In this document: positions 21,110 through 35,197 of the stretch, piece after piece | How the letters are laid out: every line of letters starts with the position of its first letter | Position numbering within the stretch: position 1 is the stretch's first letter | IMG/VR virus record: IMGVR_UViG_3300006847_000005 | Location: 1-50,673 of that record | DNA: 50,673 nt | DNA from: a virus | Reading direction: 5' to 3' (one strand) | Made by a program: the position numbers and the translations under genes | Notes under the pieces: generated by a model | Database searches by the model: none | Told to the model about the DNA's origin: nothing | The model's input: only the letters and a program-made list of their open reading frames with translations

Positions 21110-21146
21110 AAAAAGGCCCCCGCCAGCCTAAAGGCTGACAGAGGCC
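21110..21146 (-). terminator. Intrinsic terminator of tRNA cluster 1
   Basis: On the minus strand GGCC...GGCC closes a nearly continuous hairpin with inner stem CAGCC-TTTA-GGCTG, followed by TTTTT. It lies between tRNA-Cys and the NlpC/P60 gene. Confidence 0.85.
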
Positions 21147-21180
21147 AGTCTCAGCGTGATGATGAGATTGAATTGTGTAG

Positions 21181-21252
21181 AGGTACTGACGAGACTCGAA
21201 CTCGCATGGTTCCGCTTTGCAGGCGGATGGCTAGCCACTCACCCACAGTACC
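21181..21252 (-). tRNA. tRNA-Cys (GCA)
   Basis: Acceptor GGTACTG/CAGTACC, anticodon stem TCCGC/GCGGA around loop CTGCAAA, T-loop TTCGAGT, discriminator U as is usual for Cys. No encoded CCA. Last tRNA of cluster 1. Confidence 0.9.
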
Positions 21253-21325
21253 AGGGTGCCTGTGTTCCCACTATCTCACGGGTTAGGGAGTCCCGATACC
21301 TCATTGAATGCCACAGGCAGCACAG
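21253..21325 (-). ncRNA. tRNA-sized structured spacer, possible degenerate tRNA
   Basis: Exactly 73 nt between two tRNAs. The ends pair (TGCCTGT/ACAGGCA) like an acceptor stem, and an inner CGGG/CCCG hairpin has loop CTCCCTA, which would give anticodon CCC (Gly). But there is no T-arm consensus and the D-arm is poor. A decayed or highly atypical tRNA, or another small RNA. Confidence 0.3.
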
Positions 21326-21404
21326 TGCGCCGATCAGGAATCGAACCTAACCTGCCGAAGCGAGAGTTTTACAGACTCCCTGTACCACCAGGTACTTCCG
21401 GCGC
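21326..21404 (-). tRNA. tRNA-Tyr (GTA)
   Basis: Acceptor GCGCCGG/TCGGCGC, anticodon loop CTGTAAA, extended variable arm as expected for bacterial tRNA-Tyr, T-loop TTCGATT, discriminator A. Confidence 0.9.
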
Positions 21405-21405
21405 G

Positions 21406-21479
21406 TGGCGCAGGTGGGATTTGAACCCACGACTTCCAGCTTATGAGGCTGGCGAGCTACCGAACTGCTCTACTGCGCT
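21406..21479 (-). tRNA. tRNA-Met (CAT)
   Basis: Anticodon stem CCAGC/GCTGG with loop CTCATAA, T-loop TTCAAAT. The first acceptor pair is A1-C72, a mismatch in the position that is also unpaired in bacterial initiator tRNAs. The anticodon stem lacks the three G-C pairs of initiators, so elongator Met is the best call; Ile (lysidine) is possible. Confidence 0.85.
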
Positions 21480-21738
21480 AAGAAGGGTGGAAGGTGGGAT
21501 TGGCGACCCACAAGGTACGGGGCAAGAGTTACCATGCCTAAGTAGTCCGTCCATCTACGAGGCGGTGTCTAACCTGAGTGCCAACCGGACTGACTACCGG
21601 CGTTGGTCCTCTTCTCCCATCCTCAGCAGTTCGCCCTTGGATGGTTACGAGTGACACTCCCTCGCAAGCCTTACGCCCCAGCCTTGCCTGTAGACGTTGT
21701 TCGGCCACTTCCTGACAAGGCCGCTAAGCCTTGCCTAG
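21480..21738 (-). ncRNA. Structured non-coding spacer within tRNA cluster 1
   Basis: 259 nt with no tRNA consensus and no credible ORF. On the transcribed strand it contains CAAGGC-N6-GCCTTG, a GCAAG/CTTGC stem, GAGTG-TCA-CTC, CCATCC-N16-GGATGG, a CCAAC.CCGG/CCGGTTGG stem and GTGGG/CCCAC near the 3' end. It lacks the tRNA-like ends of tmRNA and recognisable RNase P sequences. Transcribed with the tRNAs; function unknown. Confidence 0.4.
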
Positions 21739-21811
21739 TAGGTGTGACAGGACTCGAACCTGCATCGTGCTGGGTGTAAACCAGGTGCTCAACCAGTTGA
21801 GCTACACACCT
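21739..21811 (-). tRNA. tRNA-Val (TAC)
   Basis: Perfect acceptor AGGTGTG/CACACCT, anticodon loop TTTACAC, D-arm GCTC/GAGC, T-loop TTCGAGT, discriminator A. Confidence 0.9.
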
Positions 21812-21815
21812 TCGG

Positions 21816-21889
21816 TACCCCTACCAGGATTCGAACCTGGACCCTACTGCTTAGGAGGCAGTTGTACTAATCCATTGTACCATAGGGGC
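21816..21889 (-). tRNA. tRNA-Arg (CCT)
   Basis: Acceptor GCCCCTA/TAGGGGT with a G-U first pair, anticodon stem ACTGC/GCAGT with loop CTCCTAA, T-loop TTCGAAT, discriminator A. Reads AGG. Confidence 0.9.
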
Positions 21890-21890
21890 G

Positions 21891-21962
21891 TGGTTCCGAC
21901 AGGGATCGAACCTGTGCGCTCCGGGCTTCAACCGGAAGCTCTGCCAACTGAGCTACAGAACC
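21891..21962 (-). tRNA. tRNA-Phe (GAA)
   Basis: Acceptor GGTTCTG/CGGAACC, anticodon stem TCCGG/CCGGA with loop TTGAAGC, T-loop TTCGATC, discriminator A. Confidence 0.93.
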
Positions 21963-21963
21963 G

Positions 21964-22036
21964 GGTGCTGGACGGGAGTTGAACCCGCATACTCCTGGGA
22001 CACAACCAGGCACGTCTGCCTTTGCGTTACCAGCAC
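21964..22036 (-). tRNA. tRNA-His (GTG)
   Basis: Acceptor GTGCTGG/CCAGCAC, anticodon stem CCTGG/CCAGG with loop TTGTGTC, T-loop TTCAACT, discriminator C as is characteristic of His. The base before position 1 is T, so the G-1 that HisRS normally needs is not evident. Confidence 0.88.
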
Positions 22037-22038
22037 AG

Positions 22039-22111
22039 AGCCCTATGAGAGATTCGAACTCCCGGCACCGTGGTCCGTAGCCACGTGCTCTATCCACTGA
22101 GCTAATAGGGC
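22039..22111 (-). tRNA. tRNA-Arg (ACG)
   Basis: Perfect acceptor GCCCTAT/ATAGGGC, anticodon stem CGTGG/CCACG with loop CTACGGA, T-loop TTCGAAT. Reads CGU (and CGC/CGA if A34 is deaminated). First tRNA of cluster 1, nearest its promoter. Confidence 0.92.
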
Positions 22112-22230
22112 AGGGTGGTAAGGTTCGGGTTTCCAATCCGAACCCTACCGTCTAGTAGTTACACCCTGAGTAACGTTGATGGGGTATCTGACCCCATGTC
22201 AGTGAGCGTAGCGACACGATCCCACTGACA
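22112..22230 (-). ncRNA. Structured leader of tRNA cluster 1
   Basis: Between the promoter and the first tRNA, the minus-strand RNA can form three consecutive stems: TGTCAGTG/CACTGACA (22197-22230), GGGGT-CAGAT-ACCCC (22181-22195) and a 12-bp stem (22117-22149) that is fully paired on this strand only through a G-U pair. It may guide 5' processing, or it may be a regulatory leader. Confidence 0.5.
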
Positions 22231-22235
22231 AGATA

Positions 22236-22264
22236 AGACTACCACATCGCCGGGTGTTTGTCAA
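22236..22264 (-). promoter_or_regulatory. Sigma-A promoter of tRNA cluster 1
   Basis: On the minus strand TTGACA (22264-22259), 17-nt spacer, TAGTCT (22241-22236); initiation is expected near 22229. It lies downstream of the last tail gene, so the tRNAs can be expressed independently of the late operon. Confidence 0.8.
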
Positions 22265-22315
22265 GAACTTTCGACCAGCCAGTCGCAGAACTTTTGCCAC
22301 CACCAGAATGTCATA

Positions 22316-22639
22316 TTACGTCACCGTAATCTGAATCTGGCCACCCTTCATGACGGGGACCTCGGGGCTATCTGTCAACTTGACGGTCCAGTCGTAGAGA
22401 CCGGCACCCTTGGTGATGGACCCTCCGGGTCCGATCAGGATGCGGAATGCTACAGTCCAGATACCGTCATCTGCTGTGACATCGGTCACAGTGGCAGGCT
22501 GGAAATCGGACAAGGCCGGTGGCTTGTACGCCTGAGGCATGGCCACGTAAACCGGGAACCCGGTAAGGTCATGGTCTACGCTGATCGACCCCTTGACGTA
22601 CACCAGGCTGTCCTGACGCATCTTAAGTGGCTTACTCAT
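22316..22639 (-). CDS. Small virion-associated protein, Ig-like beta domain
   Basis: 107 residues; the pattern 'RQDSLVYVKGSISVD...YDWTVKLTDSP...GGQIQITVT' resembles the beta-sandwich modules of phage baseplate and fibre accessory proteins. ATG 22639 with GGAGCC upstream; overlaps the preceding gene by eight bases. It is the last gene of the structural operon. A structural role is inferred from context. Confidence 0.6.
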   Translation of the reverse strand: MSKPLKMRQDSLVYVKGSISVDHDLTGFPVYVAMPQAYKPPALSDFQPATVTDVTADDGIWTVAFRILIGPGGSITKGAGLYDWTVKLTDSPEVPVMKGGQIQITVT

Positions 22640-23273
22640 TATGTGGCTCCGTTGTCTCAAACGCGCTGTAAGGCATTCTAACGGCCCAGACCCCCTTCTC
22701 TAGGGTGTTACCCCAGGACGCCCCTGCGGGGCCTACAGCGGCCCAGGAAACGCCAGGACGGGCTACTCTAGAGATTACAAGGTCCCGGAATGGGATGAAC
22801 TGACGTGGGAACCCAAAGAAGCGGGTCCTACACCTGTAAACGGGTGTTACACGACGCCTAGAAATACGATCCGGGACCCGTGACGAGACCACCGGGACGG
22901 CTGGCGTCGCCACCACTCCGAAAAACCGGCCACGCCTGGTACGCCTCGCCCTGCCACGCTCTGCCATCATGAAGGTAGGCGGATAACTCGGTGGTGCAAC
23001 CACCACCTGTGCGGGTACTCGGGTGAAGAAGCGTCCACGGCGAATCGGCCTGGACCTACTACGCTCGGTAGTGGAGAACTGAGGGACGTAGGCCGGTGGC
23101 GTCACCACCACCTGGGCCGGAACCCTATTCCAGAACTCACCACGGCGTACGGTAAACGCCGCCCGCCTCCTGCGCGCTAGACGATCAGGAGCACGGGGGG
23201 GCGCTACCGGAATTACCTTGGGATAATCAAAGAACCGACCGCGCCGGTTGCGTGGATAACGCCAACGACGCAT
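22632..23273 (-). CDS. Arg/Pro-rich protein with five RRGRFF repeats
   Basis: 213 residues built of about five ~35-residue repeats, each opening with R(R)GRFF or a close variant (residues 10, 43, 78, 113 and ~147), followed by a hydrophobic 'VPAQVVVxPP' stretch and an Arg-rich linker. The C-terminus differs (WAAVGPAGASW). Strongly basic. Located among tail genes, so possibly a virion protein that contacts DNA or polyanionic wall polymers; no family recognised. Confidence 0.65.
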   Translation of the reverse strand: MRRWRYPRNRRGRFFDYPKVIPVAPPRAPDRLARRRRAAFTVRRGEFWNRVPAQVVVTPPAYVPQFSTTERSRSRPIRRGRFFTRVPAQVVVAPPSYPPTFMMAERGRARRTRRGRFFGVVATPAVPVVSSRVPDRISRRRVTPVYRCRTRFFGFPRQFIPFRDLVISRVARPGVSWAAVGPAGASWGNTLEKGVWAVRMPYSAFETTEPHNE

Positions 23274-23283
23274 TAGTTAGTCC

Positions 23284-23751
23284 TTACTCTTCCCACTCTA
23301 CACTCAGCACCAGCTTGTGCGATGCTGGCAGAGCGTTGGTACGGTTGATGAAAGCGAAGCCGTCTGTGGTACCGGCTGCTAGCTGCCACTCCTCAACCAG
23401 TTCCGCAGGCAGATCGACACCCGACTGCGAGTTGAACGCAATCTTGTAGAAGTCTGGCGAGGTTACTGTGGGTGGAGTGGCGTAAGTAGTATGGAACAGA
23501 CACGAGGCCGTAGGCATGTTGGCGTCCAGCTTAGCGCCGGTCACCGAACCGCCAGGCGTAGTGCCCGCGTTGGTCGTGCGTGCGATGCCGACCTCGATCT
23601 GCTGGCTGGTAGGCACCGAGGCACCGGCCAGGACACCGAGCGTCACACGGCGCAGCTTACCACCGGCACCCGCAACTGGACGGAGCCAGCCGAATGCGGT
23701 GTCTGCGCCGAGGGCGGCAGTGGACTCTACGACCGCTGTATAGCGAGCCAT
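23284..23751 (-). CDS. Probable minor structural protein
   Basis: 155 residues, beta-rich and low in charge (VVESTAALGADTAFGWLRPV...FAFINRTNALPASHKLVLSV), like small jelly-roll or fibre-tip proteins. No catalytic motif. It sits in the run of tail and host-recognition genes. Function inferred from position. Confidence 0.55.
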   Translation of the reverse strand: MARYTAVVESTAALGADTAFGWLRPVAGAGGKLRRVTLGVLAGASVPTSQQIEVGIARTTNAGTTPGGSVTGAKLDANMPTASCLFHTTYATPPTVTSPDFYKIAFNSQSGVDLPAELVEEWQLAAGTTDGFAFINRTNALPASHKLVLSVEWEE

Positions 23752-23759
23752 GGGTTCTC

Positions 23760-24404
23760 CTAAAAGAAACTAGTATACTGAGAGCAAACAGGGTGTTGCT
23801 TATCCTTGCGCCCCAATGCCCATTCTACGGCTTGGAGGACAATGGTGTCACCAGTCGAGTTGAGAGTGGTTCCCCATGAATCGACCATGCCTAGGGCGAC
23901 TCTGCGTGCTGTAGCGTTACCAGTGGTCATTGCAGCACCAGTGTCGTAGGCGTAACCCACGATGTGCGTAGGGTTAGTAGGGTCAGCGGCAGCGAACGAT
24001 TGTACGCCAGCGCCGAGGTTGGCCGCAGGGACGCCGAAGCGTCCTTGCGATGTAGTCTTGACATTCTGTGTTCCGGTACTGATGCCATTGGTAATTGGAT
24101 GGGAACTAATTTCCCAGCTAGTACCCGACAGCAGGTTAGTACCGTTCACATTGGTCATATTCAAATCATCCCAACCGCCAACCTCCATGCTAACCACGGG
24201 GTCGGTAATTGAGGTGTACTTGGTTGTTAGAATACCGGGCGAGACGGACTCCAAGATGACATGGCAGTCAATACCCGCCAGCACGGAATCGTCATCCGAT
24301 ACGTAAGTCACGGTGTGGCCGTCGCTCTCTAGCAGTGCCTTGATATCTGCGTCGAATGTGGTCGGAACGGTCTTATCGCCCACTACCAGAGAGAGCCACG
24401 CCAT
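23760..24404 (-). CDS. Alpha/beta protein, GATase-1/ThuA-like fold
   Basis: 214 residues. 'DADIKALLESDGHTVTYVSDDD' and the terminal 'DTIVLQAVEWALGRKD' resemble the flavodoxin-like domains of ThuA/type-1 glutamine-amidotransferase-like proteins found in some phage structural regions. I see no convincing Cys-His-Glu triad, so it may be a binding rather than catalytic domain. Virion association is inferred from neighbours. Confidence 0.45.
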   Translation of the reverse strand: MAWLSLVVGDKTVPTTFDADIKALLESDGHTVTYVSDDDSVLAGIDCHVILESVSPGILTTKYTSITDPVVSMEVGGWDDLNMTNVNGTNLLSGTSWEISSHPITNGISTGTQNVKTTSQGRFGVPAANLGAGVQSFAAADPTNPTHIVGYAYDTGAAMTTGNATARRVALGMVDSWGTTLNSTGDTIVLQAVEWALGRKDKQHPVCSQYTSFF

Positions 24405-24406
24405 GC

Positions 24407-24604
24407 TTAGTCCTTATTCTTGAGTGCGAATGTCCCGACGAATCCGGCGACGAATGCGCCCGCTGCGGCAGCCAGGTCCCCCTTGCTCACTCCGTCTTGC
24501 ATCAACGGAAGAGCGATAGCGATGGCCGCAACAGCACCCGCGTACGTCGCCTTCTTGGCGTATGCGAACAGGAAACTCCCGAGTCGCTTGAGGTCGTCCT
24601 TCAT
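24407..24604 (-). CDS. Holin-like small membrane protein
   Basis: 65 residues: polar N-terminus, hydrophobic segments at about 21-35 and 44-60 (AAAAGAFVAGFVGTFAL), and a charged end KNKD. Length and layout fit actinophage holins. It lies downstream of the glycosidase-like gene rather than beside an endolysin, so a role in the virion is possible. Confidence 0.55.
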   Translation of the reverse strand: MKDDLKRLGSFLFAYAKKATYAGAVAAIAIALPLMQDGVSKGDLAAAAGAFVAGFVGTFALKNKD

Positions 24605-24616
24605 GATGTCCTTCCA

Positions 24617-25846
24617 TTACCTGACGAGAACCCCGGTGGCAAAGCCGCCAACAGGGACAGTGGTCTCGCCATACTTGGAGTAAATGACGACATCCACTGG
24701 TGCGGGATCGACATCACGATTCGTGTCGCCCCACCAAACCACGGCATCGGGACGCCACAGCCATAGCGTAGTAGTGCCATCACCCTTGCCGACGAGGATG
24801 TGATTGACGCCCTCGGGCTTGGTGATTTCCAGATCAACCGGCGCAGGCATGTCACCCGAATCGTTGGTCAGGGTGGACATGAACTCGGTCAGCGGTGCGA
24901 GGCACTGCTTAGGTGACCACGTGGCGGGATCGGTGGTCTTGACCTGCCAGGTACCGAAGCTCTTCTCGGTGTCGTCCTTGGCCTCGTTCGGGTCGTCCAG
25001 CCACTCGTAGAGGAACACCTTCTCGATGCGCTTCTCTTCAAGGATTTGCAGATAATCCCGGACGATCAGCTTGGCCTGTGCGGCCTGCGATACGGTCGGA
25101 CGCTGGCTTGGCGGTGCGTTGAGCGCCGTTGTACGACCAGTCTCGCTGATCCAGAACCTATTGGTTGCGAAGATCGATCCAATCATGTCGAGGCGGGCAC
25201 CGAGTTCAGCCAGGTCCACGTTCTCGTCACCGAAGTAATGATGAACCGAGGCAACGTGATAATTGCCGACGATGCCAGCCTCGCGGAAGCGGATGTATAG
25301 CTGAGCGTCAGCGGGCATACGCAGCGGTGGTGCCAGGACGGTGACCGGCAGAGCGTTGTCCTGCACGAACTTCCAAATCATCCTCTGGACGCGCACAGTG
25401 TACGCAACGTCATCGCTAGTCAGGCCGTCGAGGTCCGGCTCATTGCACCCTTCGATAGCAATGAAGTCCTCGACGTGATCCTTGATGTAGGCAAGACGCT
25501 GCATGATCAGCTTGTCACTAGTGCGCTGCTTACAGCTAGCGACTTGGGCCATCCACTTGAGGCCGTTGGCCTTGGCGTGGGTGAGCGCCTGCTGCACAAG
25601 CGGCAGATTGGTGGCCACCATGCCACGGATGTTCCCGAATCCGGCATCAGCGATGCTCTCTGTCCACACGTCAGGGTGTTCCCATACCGTGTTGGCAAAG
25701 TTCGGGTGTGTGCAAACGCCCAGGCGTTCACGCAGATCACCGGCACTCATTGGCTGCTGTTGAGGGATTGCTGTCAGTTCAACATCACCCACTAGTCGCT
25801 CAATGGGACCGGTGAATGTGCCGCCTGTTACCTTATAGGTTACCAT
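24617..25846 (-). CDS. Tail-associated glycoside hydrolase-like protein
   Basis: 409 residues. A short N-terminal segment (1-35) is followed by a TIM-barrel typical of clan GH-A: IEGCNEPD holds the acid/base Glu136 (N-E-P), and FWISETGRT holds the nucleophile Glu235. The C-terminal ~100 residues form a separate beta domain. It probably cleaves a host surface or wall polysaccharide during adsorption. It overlaps the preceding membrane-protein gene by seven bases. Confidence 0.7.
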   Translation of the reverse strand: MVTYKVTGGTFTGPIERLVGDVELTAIPQQQPMSAGDLRERLGVCTHPNFANTVWEHPDVWTESIADAGFGNIRGMVATNLPLVQQALTHAKANGLKWMAQVASCKQRTSDKLIMQRLAYIKDHVEDFIAIEGCNEPDLDGLTSDDVAYTVRVQRMIWKFVQDNALPVTVLAPPLRMPADAQLYIRFREAGIVGNYHVASVHHYFGDENVDLAELGARLDMIGSIFATNRFWISETGRTTALNAPPSQRPTVSQAAQAKLIVRDYLQILEEKRIEKVFLYEWLDDPNEAKDDTEKSFGTWQVKTTDPATWSPKQCLAPLTEFMSTLTNDSGDMPAPVDLEITKPEGVNHILVGKGDGTTTLWLWRPDAVVWWGDTNRDVDPAPVDVVIYSKYGETTVPVGGFATGVLVR

Positions 25847-26283
25847 AGTCCGCCCTTATTGACGCATTCCTGAACCTTCTCGTTGTCATCCTTGAGTTCG
25901 GTTACGTAGGTATCGCTTGACTTAAGGAATGACGCCCGAGCCTTTTCGGGGTCCTGTTCTGGATTCCTGATAAGCCCTGTAAAATCCTCGACCCAGGTGA
26001 TAGCGGAGTCACGAGTCGAAGTGGACGACTCGGCTACGCTTACTAGGCAGTTCTGAGTTTCGGCGGCGTCCGTTACCACAACAGTAACACCGATACCGAG
26101 TGCAATCTGGAATAGCGAGAAGAAAATGACGATAATCCAGACGACGGGGCGACGCCTCTTGGAGGTCGGCTTATCAGCCATATCGTTCTTATACTCCTTT
26201 AGGGCCTTGCGAAGCATTGAATAGGCATCGCGAAACAATACGCCAGCAACAAAGCCGACAGTGAGGGCAGCGAGAATATACAT
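25840..26283 (-). CDS. Membrane protein, two TM segments
   Basis: 147 residues: TM1 at about 2-18, a basic loop (PTSKRRRPV), TM2 at about 47-70, then a charged external helix with two cysteines. Layout resembles a spanin-like or holin-associated protein. Adjacent to another two-TM protein, so a lysis or entry role is plausible. Confidence 0.6.
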   Translation of the reverse strand: MYILAALTVGFVAGVLFRDAYSMLRKALKEYKNDMADKPTSKRRRPVVWIIVIFFSLFQIALGIGVTVVVTDAAETQNCLVSVAESSTSTRDSAITWVEDFTGLIRNPEQDPEKARASFLKSSDTYVTELKDDNEKVQECVNKGGLW

Positions 26284-26489
26284 TAATCGTCGTCACCCCC
26301 GCCCTTCGAGCGTAGGATGAATCCACTTACCATAGCGCCTAGCAGTCCACTCAACATAGTAGCCGTTCCCGTGATTTCCAGCGCCCCCTGGAACAATCCC
26401 ACCACCACGACAACGCAGAGCAAACCAACAATGATAAATGCAAGAGCGACCATAGCCTTAGCGAGCAAACGAGCGGTAGGGTTAGGCAT
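26283..26489 (-). CDS. Small two-TM protein, holin candidate
   Basis: 68 residues with TM helices at about 12-33 and 42-59 and a short polar tail RSKGGGDDD; size and topology fit a holin. Coupled to the 147-aa membrane protein (shared stop/start base). Confidence 0.6.
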   Translation of the reverse strand: MPNPTARLLAKAMVALAFIIVGLLCVVVVVGLFQGALEITGTATMLSGLLGAMVSGFILRSKGGGDDD

Positions 26490-28375
26490 TATCCAACCTT
26501 TCGTAGCTCGACGTAAACCACTCCTCCAAAGTTATCATTCGCATTCTTGGATGGTGTAGTATTCTGGAATGTCAAACTCTCGATCTGACCGATTCCAGCC
26601 TCACCTGTTCGGAAGTCCTTGAATTGGACGAGGACCTGGCTGTTCTCTAGGTCCTCTAGAATTTGCAGCCGACGCCATGCGTCGCCCTGCTTACCGCGAT
26701 CGATACCCCGACGATTCCGTTCCGTATCCTCAATCTGTAGAGGTACGCGAATGAGCCTGCTCCGAGTGGGAGCGGGTAGCGCCCTGATCTGATAGCCCAG
26801 AAGTGTTGGGCGAATCGTTGGATCGATCAGGTCTGAGTTGAGAGTGAAGATAAATCCAATGGACTCGATTGACTCGGTGATTCCCACCGTTACGTCAAGG
26901 TCCTTCTGTGACGCCACGTCCATCGACGTGATCAGATTGGTCACTCCATCAGAACGGATAGTTGAGATACCAATGGTACCACCCCCGTCCGCCCGTACCT
27001 TGATGGTACGGAAAAGCTTACTTTCCAGCGTACCGAATCGCATCTGACCTGTAGTCAGCACACCTAGTGCCGCGAGTGACGGATCGCTCCGCCTAATCTG
27101 GTTGTTCGACCAGGCCCACAGTACACCGTTGGCGTCCTGCTGGGCACCCTGATTGGCGGTAGCCGCCGCCGACAGTTCGGCCCATGCCGTCCATGCCGGA
27201 CGGAGGTCCGAGACGATATGCTCAAGGTTGACGCAGAACAGGGTAGCTGAGCTATAGCCGCTCACATTACCCACGCAGTACATCTGGGACTGATTCAGAC
27301 CGGTACGCCTGTTGCCCGAGAAGTCTCCCTCGATGAGGAGGGGACCGTAGGCCATAACGGGTGTACCACTGGACAGGTTGGCCTGTCCGATGCGAAGTCC
27401 GAAGCGAGTGGTGATTGCCACGAACCCCAGATAGTGGGTCACGCTGCTGATGGTCTCGGTGACCGGCATTTCCGCTACAACCACGGGCGCAGTCAGCGAG
27501 GGTACGCCGCCAGTGTCACTGATGGTGACACCGTAGATAGTCGTACCACAACTAATCATGACGAAGCCGGGGGTCTCGGATAGAGACCACTGACCTGTCA
27601 CCAGGCCAGGCTTCCAGAACGCATTGGTTGCGATAGTGGGAGTGGCGGTCACAGGTGGCAGAGCAAACCAGTTATCCTGGTCATCGACGCAGAAGAGTCG
27701 GCCCTTGGCCCACCAAACCCCCTGCCACGTACGGCCTCCGTCACCGTGCGTGATGAGGGTCTGTAGCGTAGTAGTCGAGTCCTGTACCTTGATGATGTTG
27801 CCAACGGCAACGTAAATCTTGCTACCATCGGAAGTCAGCGATACAGCCGTACCGCCCTCGGTGAACGGTGTGGTTCCCGCTGTCGTGCGGTGCTGAATGT
27901 TTCCATCCGACAGTAGTTCGAAGATACCGTTGACGCTGGAATGCGTACCTGGTACGGCATCGATGATAAGGGAACCGGTAGCGGCAGTGAAGCCGCCGAC
28001 CAGTGTGGTCTCGCCTAGCTCCCAAGGGTCGATACCGACGCCCGTCTTGTAACGGTTTAGAACGGTGTCGCCCTCAAGTACTTCGTAGTACTTGATACCT
28101 GCGCCCTGGTGGAATGACCACTGACTACGCAGCCAGTAGCCGTCAAGGCTCTGTTCACCGACAACCGGTCCAGAATCGAACTGTTCCTTACGGAACTGCA
28201 CGGTCTCCCGCTGGTACGGGGTCTGGGGTGTGGCAGCCACCCGGAAGCCGAGACTACCGATGGCAAAGTCATACCCCTTGATATCAAGGTCTCCTGAGCC
28301 AACCGACGCCCACTCAGGAGAGATGGCGCTGATTACACCAGTGACCTCGCCAACAATGCGGCGGTCCAATGGCAT
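26489..28375 (-). CDS. Tail nozzle-like structural protein, beta-propeller type
   Basis: 628 residues, beta-rich with recurrent Gly/Trp and 'FVAITTRFGLRIG'-like blades, followed by a C-terminal domain. The order connector, collar fibre, large beta protein matches podovirus tails, where a protein of this size forms the nozzle (T7 gp12 role). This is inferred from order and composition; I recognise no specific family. Confidence 0.55.
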   Translation of the reverse strand: MPLDRRIVGEVTGVISAISPEWASVGSGDLDIKGYDFAIGSLGFRVAATPQTPYQRETVQFRKEQFDSGPVVGEQSLDGYWLRSQWSFHQGAGIKYYEVLEGDTVLNRYKTGVGIDPWELGETTLVGGFTAATGSLIIDAVPGTHSSVNGIFELLSDGNIQHRTTAGTTPFTEGGTAVSLTSDGSKIYVAVGNIIKVQDSTTTLQTLITHGDGGRTWQGVWWAKGRLFCVDDQDNWFALPPVTATPTIATNAFWKPGLVTGQWSLSETPGFVMISCGTTIYGVTISDTGGVPSLTAPVVVAEMPVTETISSVTHYLGFVAITTRFGLRIGQANLSSGTPVMAYGPLLIEGDFSGNRRTGLNQSQMYCVGNVSGYSSATLFCVNLEHIVSDLRPAWTAWAELSAAATANQGAQQDANGVLWAWSNNQIRRSDPSLAALGVLTTGQMRFGTLESKLFRTIKVRADGGGTIGISTIRSDGVTNLITSMDVASQKDLDVTVGITESIESIGFIFTLNSDLIDPTIRPTLLGYQIRALPAPTRSRLIRVPLQIEDTERNRRGIDRGKQGDAWRRLQILEDLENSQVLVQFKDFRTGEAGIGQIESLTFQNTTPSKNANDNFGGVVYVELRKVG

Positions 28376-28384
28376 AGCAGTCCC

Positions 28385-29599: not shown

Positions 29600-30501
29600 T
29601 ACAGATAGCTCCCGGTGTACGTAATCATCGCGGGTGTGCGAGTATCCTGCCTGCGCTTCTCGTCCGCTAGTTCCTGCTCGTAGTGACGACGGAGGAAGGT
29701 GGCTACCTGCACGGCGGTACCAATTGGGTTCTGGTCTACCTCTTCACCAACGTCGCTGGTGGCTACCGGCAGACGTGAGGGGTCCATGCCTCGGACCAGA
29801 CGCTCAGCCGCTCCGTAGACGATAGTTGCCCGAGCACTGTTCTCCAATCCGGTGTCAATGATTTCGGTATCCATGTCCGTAAACTCTGTAGGTGCATGGC
29901 GGTATACCACCTTAATAGTGTGGCCCGCATAGAGTCGGTGATCACGAATATCGATAGACACTCCGGTCGGGAATGTATCGGGGTCGGCATGACGGTTCAG
30001 TTCCCAATGGTGAATCACCGGCCACTCATTCGTGGGGATGATTTCCTTGAAACGAACCTCGACAATATCCTCTACCTCAGATGGTAGTTCGAAGGTGATC
30101 CAGATTGTATTCCACGTGAACTCAGTCTCGGCCTCGCCCCATAGATCAGGGTACAATCCCACCACGCACTCGTTGATCTTTCGCTTGATCAGATTGCGTG
30201 GAAAGATAGGCGACATCGTGAGTCGCGTGTTGGGGTCGTGGTCATCTGCCACGCTTCCCATGTAACCCCGTCCGTCAGGAGCGAGGGTTACGGTATTGCT
30301 TTCACCATCTACATTCAGAATGTAGATCATTTCATCGCCAAGTTCGGCGATACCCTCTCCGATGTTACTGGCGTCATTCACGACGAATGTAGTTTGCTCA
30401 TCGTCAACGGAGCCCTGCACATATGCACTGCGGCCCTGCTGTAGGCCATAGCCTTCCAGCATGAGCGACACTTCGTCAACAAGTTCGCGCAGTGTTGCCA
30501 T
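29599..30501 (-). CDS. Head-tail connector/tail adaptor-like protein
   Basis: 300 residues. Opens with a helical 'ATLRELVDEVSLMLEGYG', then a beta domain, and ends with helices (ARATIVYGAAERLVRG). Size and gene position between capsid genes and the fibre fit a podoviral adaptor (T7 gp11 role). Joined to the fibre gene by TAATG. Assignment rests on context. Confidence 0.6.
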   Translation of the reverse strand: MATLRELVDEVSLMLEGYGLQQGRSAYVQGSVDDEQTTFVVNDASNIGEGIAELGDEMIYILNVDGESNTVTLAPDGRGYMGSVADDHDPNTRLTMSPIFPRNLIKRKINECVVGLYPDLWGEAETEFTWNTIWITFELPSEVEDIVEVRFKEIIPTNEWPVIHHWELNRHADPDTFPTGVSIDIRDHRLYAGHTIKVVYRHAPTEFTDMDTEIIDTGLENSARATIVYGAAERLVRGMDPSRLPVATSDVGEEVDQNPIGTAVQVATFLRRHYEQELADEKRRQDTRTPAMITYTGSYL

Positions 30502-30504
30502 GCC

Positions 30505-31218
30505 TTAGTCCTCTTCAACAGTGGGAATGCACAGTTCGTAGCATACCTGTGGGGTGAGTGGTCCGGCGACCTCAGTCTTACCGACGTTGCGAATGTCGCG
30601 GAACCTTTCAATGGCGTTCGTGAGGCCCCGGTCTGCGTGGCCCTTCTTGTGAGTACCAAGACTCATTCCGAATCCACGCAGGGCTCGGGCTACGGTTTCA
30701 ACTTGACGACGGCCCTCTTCCGAGTCGGCCCTGCTATTCGCCTTAGCTGCCAGTTCGTTGAAACGCTTCCACGAAACCAGTCGAGCGTCCCTATAGCTGA
30801 ACTCTCGAATCACAGGCGGACGATACCACTTGTCGCGGGTACTGCCCACGAGGCCGTCACCGCCTGCTCGATACTCCGCGACTTGCGCCTTGGCACCACT
30901 CGATGCCTTGTCGTTACCGATCAAGATACCGTGCCAGTGACGTCCCCACAGTCCGAGGATCGTGGGGCGTGGCCAACCGGCGAAGTGTCCAAACTGTCGC
31001 AGGGCCTTGTTCTGCTTCCTGATACGGAGACGCCAGCGGAGGTCAACAGCGCCTCCACCATCATGTGTTCCGGCGCTCTGCGAAACTCCACCAGCGTTGT
31101 AGCTACCCTGCATGATGTCATTGCCGTACCCCAGGCGCTTCTCAGCGGCCAGTAGTGCGGCAATAGTCATGCGGTCTAGGGTGCTACCACGGAATGTGTA
31201 CTTTTCGTAGAGACTCAT
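30505..31218 (-). CDS. M15-like peptidoglycan peptidase
   Basis: 237 residues. SAGTHDGGGAVDL (H52, D59) and HWHGI (H96) match the zinc ligands of the D-Ala-D-Ala carboxypeptidase/M15 family, which cut wall peptides. After the catalytic ~110 residues comes a basic C-terminal region with a helix pair resembling a peptidoglycan-binding domain. It could be an endolysin or a virion lysin; a small TM protein two genes upstream offers a holin. Confidence 0.75.
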   Translation of the reverse strand: MSLYEKYTFRGSTLDRMTIAALLAAEKRLGYGNDIMQGSYNAGGVSQSAGTHDGGGAVDLRWRLRIRKQNKALRQFGHFAGWPRPTILGLWGRHWHGILIGNDKASSGAKAQVAEYRAGGDGLVGSTRDKWYRPPVIREFSYRDARLVSWKRFNELAAKANSRADSEEGRRQVETVARALRGFGMSLGTHKKGHADRGLTNAIERFRDIRNVGKTEVAGPLTPQVCYELCIPTVEED

Positions 31219-31493
31219 GCTCGAAACGCCTCTCCTGTCTTTTCAGAGATTTCTACTGCTGTCTGCACGTCGCTGGGCCACGTGGACTTGGGGTCAATGC
31301 CCTGCTCTCGTGCAGTACGATAGTCGGCCAGGTTCTTGTCCCAGCGCTTTTGTCGCGTAGCGTCATGACCCTTCCAGTCCTGACAGTAAGCAACCCTGAG
31401 GTTCTTCGCCCTCAGGCATTCACCGTAGGAATCATGGTCTTGGGTCAGGCAGCTAGCGGAGCAGTGCGTATTGCGCTGCGTAGTGCTTACCAC
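31215..31493 (-). CDS. Hypothetical Cys-containing protein
   Basis: 92 residues with four cysteines in the first third (HCSASCLTQ...GECLR...AYCQDW) and a charged helical remainder. GGGAGG five bases before the GTG sets the start. It overlaps the preceding membrane protein by 41 bases and the peptidase by four. Function unknown. Confidence 0.6.
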   Translation of the reverse strand: MVSTTQRNTHCSASCLTQDHDSYGECLRAKNLRVAYCQDWKGHDATRQKRWDKNLADYRTAREQGIDPKSTWPSDVQTAVEISEKTGEAFRA

Positions 31494-31593
31494 CGTCGCC
31501 TCCCTTGAAGTCTACGTCAAAGACCTTGGGCCAGAGAACGATAATCGCTAGCGCAACAAGAACTCCGATAAGGATGATGAGCCATGTAGGCAT
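31453..31593 (-). CDS. Small membrane protein
   Basis: 46 residues: N-terminal TM helix (about 4-21, WLIILIGVLVALAIIVLW) and a short polar tail. It lies one base after the upstream stop. Possible lysis or membrane-penetration factor near the M15-like peptidase. Confidence 0.6.
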   Translation of the reverse strand: MPTWLIILIGVLVALAIIVLWPKVFDVDFKGGDGGKHYAAQYALLR

Positions 31594-31594
31594 G

Positions 31595-32002
31595 TTAGTT
31601 GAACACTCCCTGTGCAATGCACGTGAGTTCGGGGGTTGTACCCAAAGTTCCAACCTGCTCCATTTGGAGCGTTACCGCATTCTGACGAGCGGCAACCACT
31701 ACGGGGATAACCCACATGTCAGAGAAGTTGGCAACCAATGGGATACGTGCGTAAAAGATGTCACTCTCATCGTCAGGGATACCGCCTGAGCCCTCAACCG
31801 ATACCGTTACTGACGGCGACCCGGAAGGGGCCGTCGTTCCACCGAACACTGATACGCACAGCGTACCGACGAATGTAGTCTGACGAGGAATAGAGAGGAC
31901 GGTCTGGCCAGTGGCGTCAGTGGCAGTCGAAGTGGAGACACCCCTGCCCCATACTGGCATGCCGCCTGTCTTAGTGGCGACTGGATTTGATTCGTTAGCC
32001 AT
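31595..32002 (-). CDS. Probable head decoration or minor structural protein
   Basis: 135 residues, beta-rich with Ser/Thr/Gly/Val-rich strands (TDATGQTVLSIPRQTTFVGT). It lies two genes after the capsid protein, where decoration or head-completion proteins are usual. No family recognised. TAATG overlap upstream. Confidence 0.5.
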   Translation of the reverse strand: MANESNPVATKTGGMPVWGRGVSTSTATDATGQTVLSIPRQTTFVGTLCVSVFGGTTAPSGSPSVTVSVEGSGGIPDDESDIFYARIPLVANFSDMWVIPVVVAARQNAVTLQMEQVGTLGTTPELTCIAQGVFN

Positions 32003-32277
32003 TATGTAATGTACTCTCCGAAGCCATCTGCCGTTAGGTCACTGGCTACTTGTGTGGTTACTGTGTATTCCCTGCCCTCGGCAAAGTGGTCCGTGCCCTC
32101 TTCGAGTACATCTAGTTCTTCCCACGTAGGCGCATACACGCGCACGTAATGGCCATTCCTCTTCACAATGGCAGCCGGGTGTGGCTGAGTGTAGAAGTTG
32201 AATGGCCGAAAGAATGGTTCGAATGGGGTGAGCGGCATCTTGAATGCAGCAGGAGGGACGGGCTTGAAAGCAGGCAT
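32002..32277 (-). CDS. Small head-region protein
   Basis: 91 residues: a Pro/Phe-rich N-terminus (MPAFKPVPPAAFKMPLTPF) and an acidic C-terminal domain. The ATG with AAGGAG four bases upstream is preferred over the in-frame GTG/ATG earlier. It directly follows the capsid gene and a strong hairpin. Confidence 0.6.
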   Translation of the reverse strand: MPAFKPVPPAAFKMPLTPFEPFFRPFNFYTQPHPAAIVKRNGHYVRVYAPTWEELDVLEEGTDHFAEGREYTVTTQVASDLTADGFGEYIT

Positions 32278-32291
32278 TGTTCTCCTTAAGG

Positions 32292-32317
32292 GGGGCGGGC
32301 CACACCGGACCCGCCCC
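32292..32317 (-). other. GC hairpin after the capsid gene
   Basis: GGGGCGGG pairs with CCCGCCCC, extended by CC/GG with one bulged base. There is no T-run. It lies 15 bases after the capsid stop and just before the next ribosome site, so it probably protects capsid mRNA or partly attenuates downstream transcription. Confidence 0.55.
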
Positions 32318-32331
32318 ACTCAAGTCTGGGG

Positions 32332-33315
32332 TTATGTCAGAGCCGTTGTCGAAACCGACGAAGTGGTCTCTGCTCGGTAGAGGCAAGCCTCACGGAAGCG
32401 ACCCCATCCGGCGTACGCGTGGTATCCGGCTGGACGGTGACGGTTGAACGCGTCTGTCACAGGACCAATGGTCATGTGCGGCTCAACCGCAACAGCCTCG
32501 GCCAGAGCCTCGGCAGCCAGAACCAGCGTGCGGTAAACAGTATCCGAACCGGTACCGTCGTTAGCTGTGTAACAACGGTTGCTGACTACGTAAGCCAGCC
32601 CCTCGTAGATACCAATGTTACCACGCCAGATGTTACCTGCGGCCTGGTACTCGTGAACCACACGCCATCCACCGACACCAGTCTCAGCACGAAGGTCGTG
32701 CTCGACGTGGGGGTGGATCAGGGCCACGTACTCGCCAGTGTCGCCCAGAGGGATCGCGTTGTTAGCGCGCATCTGGGTGCTGATGAAACGAGCGATCTTC
32801 GATGTGAAGACATCACCCGCCGCGTCAGCCACGGTGTTAGTAGGTCCTGTTGGAGTGGGAACACCCGCTGCGGAGTAAACGACGTTCGTTCCCTGACGGA
32901 GAACCGTCAGGACGCGCTTATCCACATCGTCAGCCATAGCTGCTGCCAGGTCCCGCGCAACAACCGCGTCAACGTCGGTGAACGACACTGTGCGCAGCTT
33001 GAAGGTTGGGATTACGATGTCACCGAACTCGGTGAGTGGGACATCGATGTAGGCAGCCTGCGGCAGAACGCGCGCAGTAGGCTGGTTGTACTCGTGCAGG
33101 TCTGTGTTAGACGCTGCGCCGAGGTAGGGGTTCATCGTGAAACGTACTAGAGGACCAGGGTTGTTCAGGTCCTCAGGCCCCTTCTTGACCGTTGCCGCAT
33201 TGCGGAACAACGGCTGGGAACGCAGTTCCCAGTTCAGAGCCATATCGTAGGCGTTCAGAACTGTCTGTACGCCAATCGAATCGGCATCGACTACTGACGT
33301 AAAGCCGTTAGCCAT
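32332..33315 (-). CDS. Major capsid protein, N4-gp56-like
   Basis: 327 residues. HK97-fold capsid proteins of the N4-gp56 family share this pattern: an extended N-arm, 'LRTVSFTDVDAVVARDLAAAMADDVDKRVL' (spine helix region), 'YVALIHPHVEHDLRAE' and a terminal 'GWGRFREACLYRAET'. It builds the icosahedral shell. It follows the scaffold-like gene by 42 bases; its ribosome site is weak for such an abundant protein. Confidence 0.8.
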   Translation of the reverse strand: MANGFTSVVDADSIGVQTVLNAYDMALNWELRSQPLFRNAATVKKGPEDLNNPGPLVRFTMNPYLGAASNTDLHEYNQPTARVLPQAAYIDVPLTEFGDIVIPTFKLRTVSFTDVDAVVARDLAAAMADDVDKRVLTVLRQGTNVVYSAAGVPTPTGPTNTVADAAGDVFTSKIARFISTQMRANNAIPLGDTGEYVALIHPHVEHDLRAETGVGGWRVVHEYQAAGNIWRGNIGIYEGLAYVVSNRCYTANDGTGSDTVYRTLVLAAEALAEAVAVEPHMTIGPVTDAFNRHRPAGYHAYAGWGRFREACLYRAETTSSVSTTALT

Positions 33316-33357
33316 GGTCGGTAGTCTTTCTAGTTAGAAGGGATATAAGCGAGCGCC

Positions 33358-33864
33358 TTATCCCGGTTGACCCTGCTGAATCTGATGCATGATCTGCCAG
33401 TACTCATCCCGCGAACCAGCCTGCGAGAGGCGGTCCAGGTCGGTCTGAGAGACGCTGGGCGGGGCACCCTGCGGTGCTCCGGTGGTAGCTGCCAGGTTCG
33501 CCTGATCCTGCTCTGAGAGCGTGGTCTCGGGCGCTGGCGGCTCCTCCTGTTGCTCTACTTCCTGCGTCGCCGTCTTGTTCAGGAGCGAACCGTTGGCCTC
33601 AAGCCAACTGTTCACACCATCCTTGTCGGTTACGGAATCAGGAACCAGAGCGATAGCGGCAGGATCGTAACCCGCCTCCCGTAGCACTCCGGACAATTCG
33701 AAGTTCCTAATCTTGGTCCTCAAGGTAGCGTTCTCTGACGCTAGCTCCTCGTTCTTAGCCTTAGTGCGCTCGGCGAATTCGCGCAACTGGCCCCCACTCG
33801 GCTGAGGATTTGGATTGGTCTCTTGCTCCGTATCATCCCAAAGATCAACGGTGTTGTCGCTCAT
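33358..33864 (-). CDS. Scaffolding-like protein
   Basis: 168 residues, acidic and largely disordered or coiled (REFAERTKAKNEELASENATL), with a Gln/Pro-rich C-terminal half. Composition and position just before the capsid gene are typical of scaffolds. ATG 33864 with GGGAGG six bases upstream is preferred over ATG 33891. Confidence 0.75.
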   Translation of the reverse strand: MSDNTVDLWDDTEQETNPNPQPSGGQLREFAERTKAKNEELASENATLRTKIRNFELSGVLREAGYDPAAIALVPDSVTDKDGVNSWLEANGSLLNKTATQEVEQQEEPPAPETTLSEQDQANLAATTGAPQGAPPSVSQTDLDRLSQAGSRDEYWQIMHQIQQGQPG

Positions 33865-33983
33865 AATGAGCCTCCCATAGAATATCGACATACCTCTCTA
33901 CCAAGCCTGGGGGTGCTTGGGAGGATGGTACTACCGGACTAGAGTACGCCCTCAACCGCCACCGGATAAGGCGGGAGGGGAAG

Positions 33984-34055
33984 TGGAGCTACACAGAATC
34001 GAACTGTGATCACCTGCTTGCAAAACAGGCATTCTGACCGTTGAACTACAGCCCC
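33984..34055 (-). tRNA. tRNA-Ala (TGC)
   Basis: Acceptor GGGGCTG/TAGCTCC (two G-U pairs), anticodon loop TTTGCAA, T-loop TTCGATT, discriminator A. Last tRNA of cluster 2. Confidence 0.9.
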
Positions 34056-34056
34056 G

Positions 34057-34130
34057 TAGCGGACTAGGGAATTGAACCCTACTCAACTGACTTATCAGAT
34101 CAGCGCTAGCAACCAGCTAGCCTGCCCGCA
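34057..34130 (-). tRNA. tRNA-Ile (GAT)
   Basis: Anticodon stem CTGAT/GTCAG with loop CTGATAA, T-loop TTCAATT, discriminator A. The acceptor TGCGGGC/GTCCGCT has a T-T mismatch at the first pair. Confidence 0.85.
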
Positions 34131-34131
34131 G

Positions 34132-34206
34132 TGACCCACGAGGGATTCGAACCCCCACCACCTAGGGTCTGAGCCTAGTGCCTCTGCCGAATTGGGCTAG
34201 TGGGCC
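34132..34206 (-). tRNA. tRNA-Leu (CAG), short variable loop
   Basis: Acceptor GGCCCAC/GTGGGTC, anticodon stem CTAGG/CCTAG with loop CTCAGAC, T-loop TTCGAAT, discriminator A. The variable region is only about five bases, whereas bacterial tRNA-Leu normally has a long arm. The isotype rests on the anticodon. Confidence 0.8.
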
Positions 34207-34211
34207 TTGCG

Positions 34212-34295
34212 AGGTAAGCGGAGGTCCTGATCCCCATTCCCGAAGGAACCATCCGGCTAGCAACCGGAGTGTGGCACTCGCCACATTCACCTACC
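34212..34295 (-). tRNA. tRNA-Ser (GCT)
   Basis: Acceptor GGTAGGT/GCTTACC, anticodon stem TCCGG/CCGGA with loop TTGCTAG, long variable arm closed by TTCG, as expected for Ser. The T-arm is weak (loop ATCAGGA). Confidence 0.83.
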
Positions 34296-34296
34296 A

Positions 34297-34370
34297 TGGA
34301 GCCGCAAGTAGGAATCGAACCCACGTCTACTGTTTACAAGGCAGCAGCTTTACCATTAAGCTATAGCGGC
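34297..34370 (-). tRNA. tRNA-Thr (TGT), CCA encoded
   Basis: Acceptor GCCGCTA/TTGCGGC with one T-T mismatch, D-arm GCTT/AAGC, anticodon loop CTTGTAA, T-loop TTCGATT. CCA follows the discriminator in the DNA. Confidence 0.82.
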
Positions 34371-34371
34371 A

Positions 34372-34458
34372 TGGAGGAAGGTAGAGGGTTCGAACCCCGC
34401 CCCAAACGGAGCCCCCGGTATTCGACACCGGTTGCGCGCCACTCGCACAGTACCTTCC
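34372..34458 (-). tRNA. tRNA-Ser (CGA), CCA encoded
   Basis: Perfect acceptor GGAAGGT/ACCTTCC, anticodon stem CCGGT/ACCGG with loop GTCGAAT, long variable arm, T-loop TTCGAAC, encoded CCA. Confidence 0.9.
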
Positions 34459-34507
34459 GGAGCATCGCCTTTTGATAGGTAGGTGGAGGCGACACTAAAA
34501 CCACCAG

Positions 34508-34579
34508 TGGGTCATATAGGATTCGAACCTATATCTTCCGGGTAAGAGCCGGATGTTCTCGCCATTATACTAATGACCC
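34508..34579 (-). tRNA. tRNA-Lys (CTT)
   Basis: Perfect acceptor GGGTCAT/ATGACCC, anticodon stem TCCGG/CCGGA with loop CTCTTAC, T-loop TTCGAAT, discriminator A. About 50 bases of non-tRNA spacer separate it from tRNA-Ser. Confidence 0.92.
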
Positions 34580-34584
34580 GTGCG

Positions 34585-34655
34585 TACCACATAGGGGGAA
34601 CGATCCCCTGCTTTCAGGTTGAGAGCCTGACGTGCTGCCATTACACCAATGCGGC
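34585..34655 (-). tRNA. tRNA-Glu (CTC)
   Basis: Acceptor GCCGCAT/ATGTGGT, anticodon stem TCAGG/CCTGA with loop CTCTCAA, discriminator A. The T-loop (ATCGTTC) departs from the TTCRANN consensus. Confidence 0.83.
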
Positions 34656-34656
34656 T

Positions 34657-34733
34657 TGGAGCGGGTGACCGGATTCGAACCGGCTCTATCTGCTTGGAAG
34701 GCAGAGGTGCTTGTCCGTTAACACTACACCCAC
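34657..34733 (-). tRNA. tRNA-Gly (TCC), CCA encoded
   Basis: Acceptor GTGGGTG/CACCCGC, anticodon stem TCTGC/GCAGA with loop CTTCCAA, T-loop TTCGAAT, encoded CCA. Confidence 0.9.
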
Positions 34734-34734
34734 G

Positions 34735-34806
34735 CGCGACTGACGGGAGTTGAACCCGCACCTTCCACCTTGACAGGGTGGCGCTCTACCTTTGAGCTAC
34801 AACCGC
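34735..34806 (-). tRNA. tRNA-Asp (GTC)
   Basis: Acceptor GCGGTTG/CAGTCGC, D-arm GCTC/GAGC, anticodon stem CCACC/GGTGG with loop CTGTCAA, T-loop TTCAACT, discriminator G as usual for Asp. Confidence 0.92.
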
Positions 34807-34807
34807 T

Positions 34808-34883
34808 TGGCACTTCACCTAGGACTCGAACCTAGACTACGTGGTCCAGGGCCACGCGTGCTGCCGAATTACACCAGCGAAGT
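34808..34883 (-). tRNA. tRNA-Gln (CTG), CCA encoded
   Basis: Acceptor ACTTCGC/GTGAAGT, anticodon stem CGTGG/CCACG, T-loop TTCGAGT, discriminator G typical of Gln, encoded CCA. The loop CCCTGGA has C at position 33 instead of the near-universal U. Confidence 0.85.
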
Positions 34884-34887
34884 ACGG

Positions 34888-34961
34888 TCCGAGAGGCAGG
34901 ATTCGAACCTGCGGTCCCCTGGTCCCAAACCAGGTGCTTTGCCAAGCTAAGCTACACTCGG
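34888..34961 (-). tRNA. tRNA-Pro (TGG)
   Basis: Acceptor CCGAGTG/CTCTCGG with one T-T mismatch, anticodon stem CCTGG/CCAGG with loop TTTGGGA, T-loop TTCGAAT, discriminator A. Confidence 0.88.
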
Positions 34962-35010
34962 TAGGCCCCGTTCTTTTCTGTAGGGGGAACGGTGCTTATA
35001 AGACCCCTCG

Positions 35011-35082
35011 CTGGCCTGGTAGGATTCGAACCTACAACCATCACCTTAACAGGGTGCTGCGCTGCCATTGCGCCACAAGCCA
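35011..35082 (-). tRNA. tRNA-Asn (GTT)
   Basis: Acceptor TGGCTTG/CAGGCCA with U1-A72 as in Asn tRNAs, anticodon loop CTGTTAA, T-loop TTCGAAT, discriminator G. A ~50-base spacer with a CCGTTC/GAACGG stem follows it. Confidence 0.9.
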
Positions 35083-35083
35083 T

Positions 35084-35155
35084 TGGCACCAGAAGTAGGA
35101 GTCGAACCCACTGCTAACGGTTTTGGAGGCCGCTATGCTCCTCAGCATCTCTGGC
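35084..35155 (-). tRNA. tRNA-Trp (CCA), CCA encoded
   Basis: Acceptor GCCAGAG/TTCTGGT (G-U at both ends), anticodon loop CTCCAAA, T-loop TTCGACT, discriminator G, encoded CCA. First tRNA of cluster 2, about seven bases after the predicted transcription start. Confidence 0.87.
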
Positions 35156-35158
35156 ACG

Positions 35159-35180
35159 GTATGGTACTATTGTACCATAC
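35159..35180. promoter_or_regulatory. Perfect 22-bp palindromic operator
   Basis: GTATGGTAC-TATT-GTACCATAC: two 9-bp arms without mismatch. It covers the -10 box and start site of the tRNA cluster 2 promoter, the classic position for a repressor. A related GTATGAC/GTCATAC dyad lies upstream of the terminase gene. Confidence 0.75.
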
Positions 35181-35197
35181 GTTTATTCAGTTGTCAA
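35169..35197 (-). promoter_or_regulatory. Consensus sigma-A promoter of tRNA cluster 2
   Basis: On the minus strand TTGACA (35197-35192), 17-nt spacer, TACAAT (35174-35169), initiating near 35162. It sits between the internal-protein genes and the tRNAs. Confidence 0.88.

Follow-up and report, generated by a model that had tools for sequence, protein, structure and literature searches.

Why should a virus with a genome of about 50.6 kb carry transfer RNA (tRNA) genes for all 20 amino acids? Phage tRNA carriage has been a puzzle for decades, and it is posed here by the window, the whole 50,673-nt stretch of IMG/VR record IMGVR_UViG_3300006847_000005. An 80-bp direct repeat stands at both ends, the record is therefore judged complete, and we ruled out that the contig is a genome fragment. 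Computation on this genome finds two tRNA clusters that jointly cover every amino acid, promoter-like sites ahead of both, a terminator-like site past one, and late genes whose codon use matches the tRNAs. We consider it probable that the clusters form a near-minimal, virus-borne tRNA set that mainly supplies translation of the late structural genes. The codon match is partial in the window, where host tRNAs still contribute.

ARAGORN predicts 21 tRNA genes, all on the minus strand. Twenty of these agree with an earlier sequence-only reading, which had counted 22 tRNAs in clusters of 8 and 14; the other one, Gly-ACC (23104-23187, minus strand), was rejected as a false positive, being located inside the coding sequence 22632-23273 without Rfam support. 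In Rfam, 18 tRNAs exceed the RF00005 cut-off in a search of the whole window, a narrower search gives the Ile tRNA 36.6 bits, and Tyr and Ser-CGA, with their long variable arms, give sub-threshold matches to tRNA-Sec of the same clan. Together with a structural parse, 21 tRNAs in two minus-strand clusters are well supported. The coverage of all 20 amino acids requires Trp-CCA, which is weak (29.8 bits in Rfam against a cut-off of 29). Its D region is short (15 nt; 15-17 nt in the Trp tRNAs of relatives), its arms pair apart from a single anticodon-stem mismatch, its loop (CTCCAAA) is that of the host Trp tRNA, and it is 78% identical to the Trp tRNA of one IMG/VR relative. We accept it as a probable tRNA, weak but backed by an orthologue, and complete coverage, as first proposed, thereby stands.

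Ser-GCT, on the other hand, was missed by ARAGORN, by Rfam and, even at E = 10, by a covariance model of nine orthologous Ser-GCT tRNAs, and its T-loop is aberrant (ATCAGGA vs TTCGACT or TTCGATT in relatives). It appears doubtful or decayed, possibly a pseudogene, with Ser still covered by Ser-CGA. The earlier count of 22 is hence best read as 21 solid tRNAs, and of the two amino acids reported as doubled, Arg (ACG and CCT) remains, the second Ser being in question. The make-up is one tRNA per amino acid, a second Arg and an apparently decayed second Ser. A viral tRNA gene cluster has been defined as at least 15 tRNA genes at a density of at least two per kb (Morgado and Vicente 2019, PMC6409571); the window reaches the density, but its set is split into 8 and 13-14 and falls outside this definition.

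A full tRNA set in a small phage has precedent among isolated relatives of about 45 kb. The late module of the window is homologous to that of the Beephvirinae, a subfamily of Streptomyces podoviruses (44-46 kb), with the order kept (terminase, portal, giant protein, peptidase, tRNA array, capsid), and cluster 2 occupies the Beephvirinae array site, with a gp13-like gene on one side and a pre-capsid gene on the other. These phages have 15-24 annotated tRNAs, and five of 11 isolates that we re-scanned (FlowerPower, Immanuel3, WRightOn, Stella and Dennebes) cover all 20 amino acids, the others 13-19. Three IMG/VR relatives carry 22 tRNAs each and cover all 20, and 12 of 20 long IMG/VR relative records have one tRNA or none. 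The smallest genome with an array of at least 15 tRNAs was 72 kb in a 2019 survey (PMC6409571); the 46-kb cluster BF phages, with 16-21 tRNAs and a capsid-gene codon use that fits them, were described later (PMC9753666). The sequence-only reading was accordingly fair in stressing so small a genome, the record being complete, but the case is not new. Anticodons are nearly invariant across the Beephvirinae, where U34 or A34 (uridine or adenosine at tRNA position 34) serves the four-codon boxes, C34 the purine-ending and G34 the pyrimidine-ending two-codon boxes; the window departs at Leu, Thr and Ser. Anticodon stems differ among relatives by paired changes, as expected of working tRNAs.

The window set does not decode the late genes alone, as strict wobble lets it read 68% of window codons and U34 superwobble 90%. 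Many codons are thus unreadable by it, and host tRNAs must remain available. Dividing late from other genes by gene order, we find that the set's own cognate codons are enriched in the late genes of the window (P = 0.0014), and likewise in Zeigle, FlowerPower and Immanuel3, but not in Scarif, a tRNA-free Streptomyces phage serving as control. Conversely, eight codons are readable by neither the window nor the Beephvirinae set (AAA, CAA, GAA, AGA, ATA, TTA, TTG and CGG), a list derived from reading rules with codon counts on view rather than blind, the contrasts between genes and genomes coming afterwards. Such unread codons make up 3.65% of the late genes of the window against 6.23% elsewhere (p = 6e-9), at near-identical GC content of third codon positions (GC3, 0.669 and 0.667), and 0.45% against 2.6% in Zeigle (p = 3e-23), while in Scarif the direction is reversed. 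CAA, GAA, TTG and CGG are still common in the late genes of the window.

The avoidance is far stronger in the Beephvirinae relatives, whose late genes hold 0.2-0.5% unread codons: AAA, AGA, ATA, TTA and TTG are absent and CAA is at most 0.5%, at a GC3 of 0.73-0.79. When Zeigle, FlowerPower and Stella are compared with a tRNA-free relative (L003), their eight most depleted codons turn out to be precisely these eight unread ones. Across 24 related genomes, the more tRNAs a genome has, the lower its share of unread codons (Spearman -0.72, p = 7e-5; medians 0.62% vs 3.65%), and the presence of single tRNAs predicts the use of single codons in the expected direction in 16 of 16 tests, each with one-sided p < 0.05 uncorrected for relatedness or multiple testing. 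AAA avoidance was dropped as a stand-alone sign of own-tRNA use, since it is also found in some tRNA-poor relatives without a Lys tRNA. As a separate observation, Gilson (L133, L134), an unrelated Streptomyces phage with about 40 tRNAs and a GC3 of 0.42, uses AAA for only 2% of its Lys codons, and the part of its array that was read holds a Lys tRNA for AAG.

Both clusters are preceded by a sigma-70-like promoter sequence. The strict pattern has three matches in the window against 0.58 expected, two of them just upstream of the tRNA clusters, and the last tRNA of cluster 1 is followed by a terminator-like hairpin; in five relatives, the same pattern has no match in the 130 bases before the array. 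Host RNA polymerase would then transcribe both clusters from strong housekeeping-type promoters, and host enzymes would process and charge the products. Late mRNAs, largely written in codons read by the phage tRNAs, would be translated from a phage-controlled pool, and late translation would be hurt less by a shortage of host tRNAs, by damage to them or by an end to their production. The host pool may become limiting through destruction by the phage, cutting by host defence or mere dilution.

Several points weigh against this explanation. The late genes were separated by gene order, not by expression; the tests across genomes ignore relatedness, and one tRNA-rich clade dominates them; and AAA avoidance proves nothing in isolation. 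The window is moreover the outlier of the family, with unread codons at 4.1% of the first ~11 kb of late genes, similar to tRNA-poor relatives, and its Leu-CAG and Ser-CGA are unable to read roughly 60% of the Leu codons and one third of the Ser codons in use. Furthermore, Abafar infects despite missing about eight of the tRNAs. Its array (L002) lacks a contiguous block, Met-Trp-Gln-Ser-Ser-Tyr-Cys, and its late-gene codons still fit the full set, which suggests a recent deletion.

In the terminase tree, the window groups with three relatives (L135, L139 and L145) and lies, with full support, outside the clade formed by the named Beephvirinae. It has a long branch (0.94), which makes its exact placement unsure, and its nearest kin is L135, a fragment. 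Between the window and the tRNA-rich Beephvirinae clade sit tRNA-poor lineages, and two separate gains of the set require fewer steps than one ancient set followed by several losses, which leans towards separate gains without proving them. The differing tRNA order and anticodons fit a separate assembly of the window set, while the common array position, together with resemblances in the Trp, Phe and Leu tRNAs, may point to some exchange or a common stock. When IMG/VR was scanned with one protein at a time, the capsid and gp12-like proteins returned no relatives and the terminase one, and a terminase alignment gave at least 80; terminase relatives in IMG/VR number 271.

A broader reading, which we hold tentatively and at somewhat less than even chances, is that this ~45-50-kb podovirus family gathered a minimal set of about 22 tRNAs more than once, resembling mitochondria in having roughly one per codon box, and that Beephvirinae late genes were purged of nearly all codons that the set leaves unread. 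Late genes would thereby use a reduced codon repertoire and be translated almost independently of host tRNAs, the window being a second, younger or looser case. Beephvirinae late genes could be readable almost entirely by phage tRNAs: the Zeigle set reads 99.5% of codons provided that U34 and A34 each decode an entire four-codon box, and 77% by strict wobble. The reading rests on such unmodified U34 and A34. In three Streptomyces genomes, MnmE was not found and CmoB gave only weak matches far below cut-off, other modifying enzymes not having been searched for, and this result is consistent with unmodified U34.

Host tRNA shortage could also stem from defence, the set replacing host tRNAs cut by anticodon nucleases, as the sequence-only reading had suggested by way of example. 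This is compatible with the late-gene pool as one possible cause of the shortage, yet as the explanation proper we find it rather unlikely. Every isotype is covered, as a broad shield needs, the window loops differ from the host loop at Ala, Gln, His, Lys, Phe, Val and Ser, and defence evasion was proposed by the Abafar authors (PMC11536984). However, about 13 of the 22 window loops equal the Streptomyces loop (one genome, of a presumed host) and would be cut alike, and Pfam and PHROGs recognised no tRNA ligase, kinase or ribonuclease among the window proteins tested. Nuclease-escape tRNAs reportedly have anticodon loops altered relative to host tRNAs, a finding ascribed to van den Berg et al. 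in 2023; loops that mostly equal those of Streptomyces would speak against a general escape design, although the true host may differ.

Codon supplementation, where the tRNAs serve codons common in a moderate-GC phage and rare in its high-GC host, is in our view improbable. With S. griseofuscus as reference for the presumed host, GC3 is 0.67 in the window and 0.92 in Streptomyces, and in five four-codon boxes (Val, Ala, Thr, Gly and Pro) the U34 anticodons TAC, TGC, TGT, TCC and TGG match codons that are about 4-7 times as common in the phage as in the host. Most of the set, however (Lys-CTT, Glu-CTC, Gln-CTG, Leu-CAG and all tRNAs for NNY codons), reads host-favoured codons. A high phage/host ratio is no commoner among the cognate codons than expected (P = 0.67); these are instead the codons that the phage itself uses frequently (P = 0.0003). 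Nor would supplementation lead one to expect that the late genes of relatives have lost CGG, one of the major codons of the host (0.03 in relatives, 0.37 in the host). The earlier preference for replacement over supplementation is thus upheld as far as there is no overall bias to host-rare codons and late genes favour cognate and avoid unread ones; it goes too far in that the window set reads 68-90% of codons, host tRNAs are not wholly gone, and the five boxes make supplementation part of the picture. Passive accumulation by recombination, without joint function, is hardly credible: tRNA number does range from 0 to 22 across the family and one window tRNA looks decayed, but each codon box has its one tRNA and duplicates are almost lacking, anticodons are constant throughout the Beephvirinae with paired stem changes, promoter-like sites precede both clusters, and codon use tracks the set.

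Table 1. Positions of the tRNA genes, regulatory sites and other features of the window, with the array RNAs of relatives.
Feature	Position	Strand	Remarks
Direct terminal repeat, 80 bp	1-80	none	exact copy 50594-50673
WhiB-like regulator	19572-20315	-	
Terminator-like hairpin (intrinsic type)	21115-21146	-	14 pairs + T tail; just past last cluster 1 tRNA
tRNA cluster 1	21180-22111	-	8 tRNAs; ARAGORN, Rfam, structural parse
Cys-GCA	21180-21252	-	cluster 1, last
Tyr-GTA	21325-21404	-	cluster 1, seventh
Met-CAT	21405-21479	-	cluster 1, sixth, past structured RNA
Structured RNA resembling manA RNA	21484-21735	-	inside cluster 1; RF01745, 34.5 bits
Val-TAC	21738-21811	-	cluster 1, fifth; structured RNA next
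Arg-CCT	21814-21889	-	cluster 1, fourth
Phe-GAA	21890-21962	-	cluster 1, third
His-GTG	21963-22036	-	cluster 1, second
Arg-ACG	22038-22111	-	cluster 1, first in transcription order
Sigma-70-like promoter, TTGACA-17-TAGTCT	22236-22264	-	upstream of cluster 1
Major capsid protein	32332-33315	-	~38% identical to Beephvirinae
tRNA cluster 2	33983-35155	-	13 + 1 doubtful; ARAGORN, Rfam RF00005, structural parse
Ala-TGC	33983-34055	-	cluster 2, last
Ile-GAT	34056-34130	-	cluster 2, after Leu-CAG
Leu-CAG	34131-34206	-	cluster 2, after doubtful Ser-GCT
Ser-GCT, doubtful	about 34209-34296	-	cluster 2, between Thr-TGT and Leu-CAG
Thr-TGT	34297-34370	-	cluster 2, tenth
Ser-CGA	34372-34458	-	cluster 2, ninth
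Lys-CTT	34507-34579	-	cluster 2, eighth
Glu-CTC	34584-34655	-	cluster 2, seventh
Gly-TCC	34657-34733	-	cluster 2, sixth
Asp-GTC	34734-34806	-	cluster 2, fifth
Gln-CTG	34808-34883	-	cluster 2, fourth
Pro-TGG	34886-34961	-	cluster 2, third
Asn-GTT	35010-35082	-	cluster 2, second
Trp-CCA, short D arm	35087-35155	-	cluster 2, first in transcription order
Sigma-70-like promoter, TTGACA-17-TACAAT	35169-35197	-	ends 14 bases before tRNA-Trp
Portal protein	45761-47569	-	
Terminase large subunit	47569-49560	-	~43% identical to Beephvirinae
Array structured RNA in relatives	L001 17007-17250; L004 5253-5496; L010 1758-2000; L214 950-1193		

Structured RNAs of about 244-252 bases lie within the tRNA arrays of both the window and the Beephvirinae. 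The window element resembles manA RNA, known from marine sequences, gamma-proteobacteria and cyanophages (PMC2864571), with an E-value of 7e-6 in a 14.6-kb search and a score below the cut-off of 55.2. In the Beephvirinae element, 15 pairs are changed on both sides and the location among the tRNAs varies; Rfam gave no match in the 244-base element of Zeigle, and the manA model matched neither 17 relatives nor any control genome, so that its absence is not shown thereby. The recognisable genes of the window are terminase, portal, capsid, primase, helicase, exonuclease and the WhiB-like regulator, the last of which suggests an actinobacterial host.

Some further features of the arrays were observed. 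The Leu tRNAs of the window and of the scanned relatives have a short variable loop and not the usual bacterial long arm, and two such Leu tRNAs are also present in a Streptomyces genome. D regions shrink to 14-15 bases in Trp, Tyr, Cys, Ala and Arg-CCT of the Beephvirinae and in the window Trp, compared with 17-23 in the host. In the spacer between Tyr and Cys (21253-21324, minus strand), a 7-bp acceptor-like helix (GCCTGTG/CACAGGC) encloses a hairpin, and this may be the remnant of a tRNA. A Lys/Arg-rich small open frame lies at about 35203-35360 on the minus strand, immediately ahead of the promoter of cluster 2: MPGKKYASIKKPAMYEGLRKAGKSKESAARISNAAAKKSRKRRKTPMKKKK.

Taken as a whole, the family represents a natural experiment: its small, related genomes hold 0, a few or about 22 tRNAs, and the use of individual codons follows the tRNAs present. 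As some isolates grow on laboratory-friendly Streptomyces, the replacement idea can be put directly to the test. To this family the window contributes a divergent member whose set is split, with a promoter-like site ahead of each cluster and codon matching that is incomplete. More interesting than its set are the Beephvirinae late genes, almost wholly in codons that their own tRNAs may read, and the family-wide fit of tRNA content to late-gene codons is the part most worth pursuing.

Among known systems, the Beephvirinae (FlowerPower, Immanuel3, WRightOn, Stella, Dennebes, Zeigle and Abafar; cluster BF, PMC9753666) share with the window the terminase (43%), the capsid (38%), the late gene order, the array site, the coverage of all 20 amino acids (in 5/11 isolates) and a structured RNA inside the array. 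The window differs in its size (50.6 kb vs 44-46 kb), an array split in two with a promoter-like site each, the tRNA order, Leu-CAG, Thr-TGT and Ser-CGA in place of Leu-TAG, Thr-AGT and Ser-AGA, a weaker codon match and its place outside the clade. Abafar and FlowerPower are podoviruses (PMC11536984, PMC9753666), whereas the window is known from sequence alone. A late-gene fit to the own tRNA pool is also common to the 'all-destructive infection' type of replacement, described for Vibrio phage 2.275.O (Yang et al. 2021) and Shigella phage Sf14 (PMC12482277). As expected for replacement of this type, late genes match the phage tRNA pool better than other genes do, partially in the window and near-totally in the Beephvirinae. 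Those reports infer loss of host tRNA genes (Yang et al. as cited in PMC12482277); the window differs by its small genome. Cluster BE Streptomyces phages (about 130 kb, 40+ tRNAs; PMC10690885) likewise combine a large set with fitting structural-gene codons, but are unrelated and larger, and have both a transfer-messenger RNA and, for some amino acids, several isoacceptors. Finally, jumbo phage XacN1 (56 tRNAs; PMC5852040) equals the window in covering all 20 amino acids, yet does so in 384.7 kb and with many duplicates.

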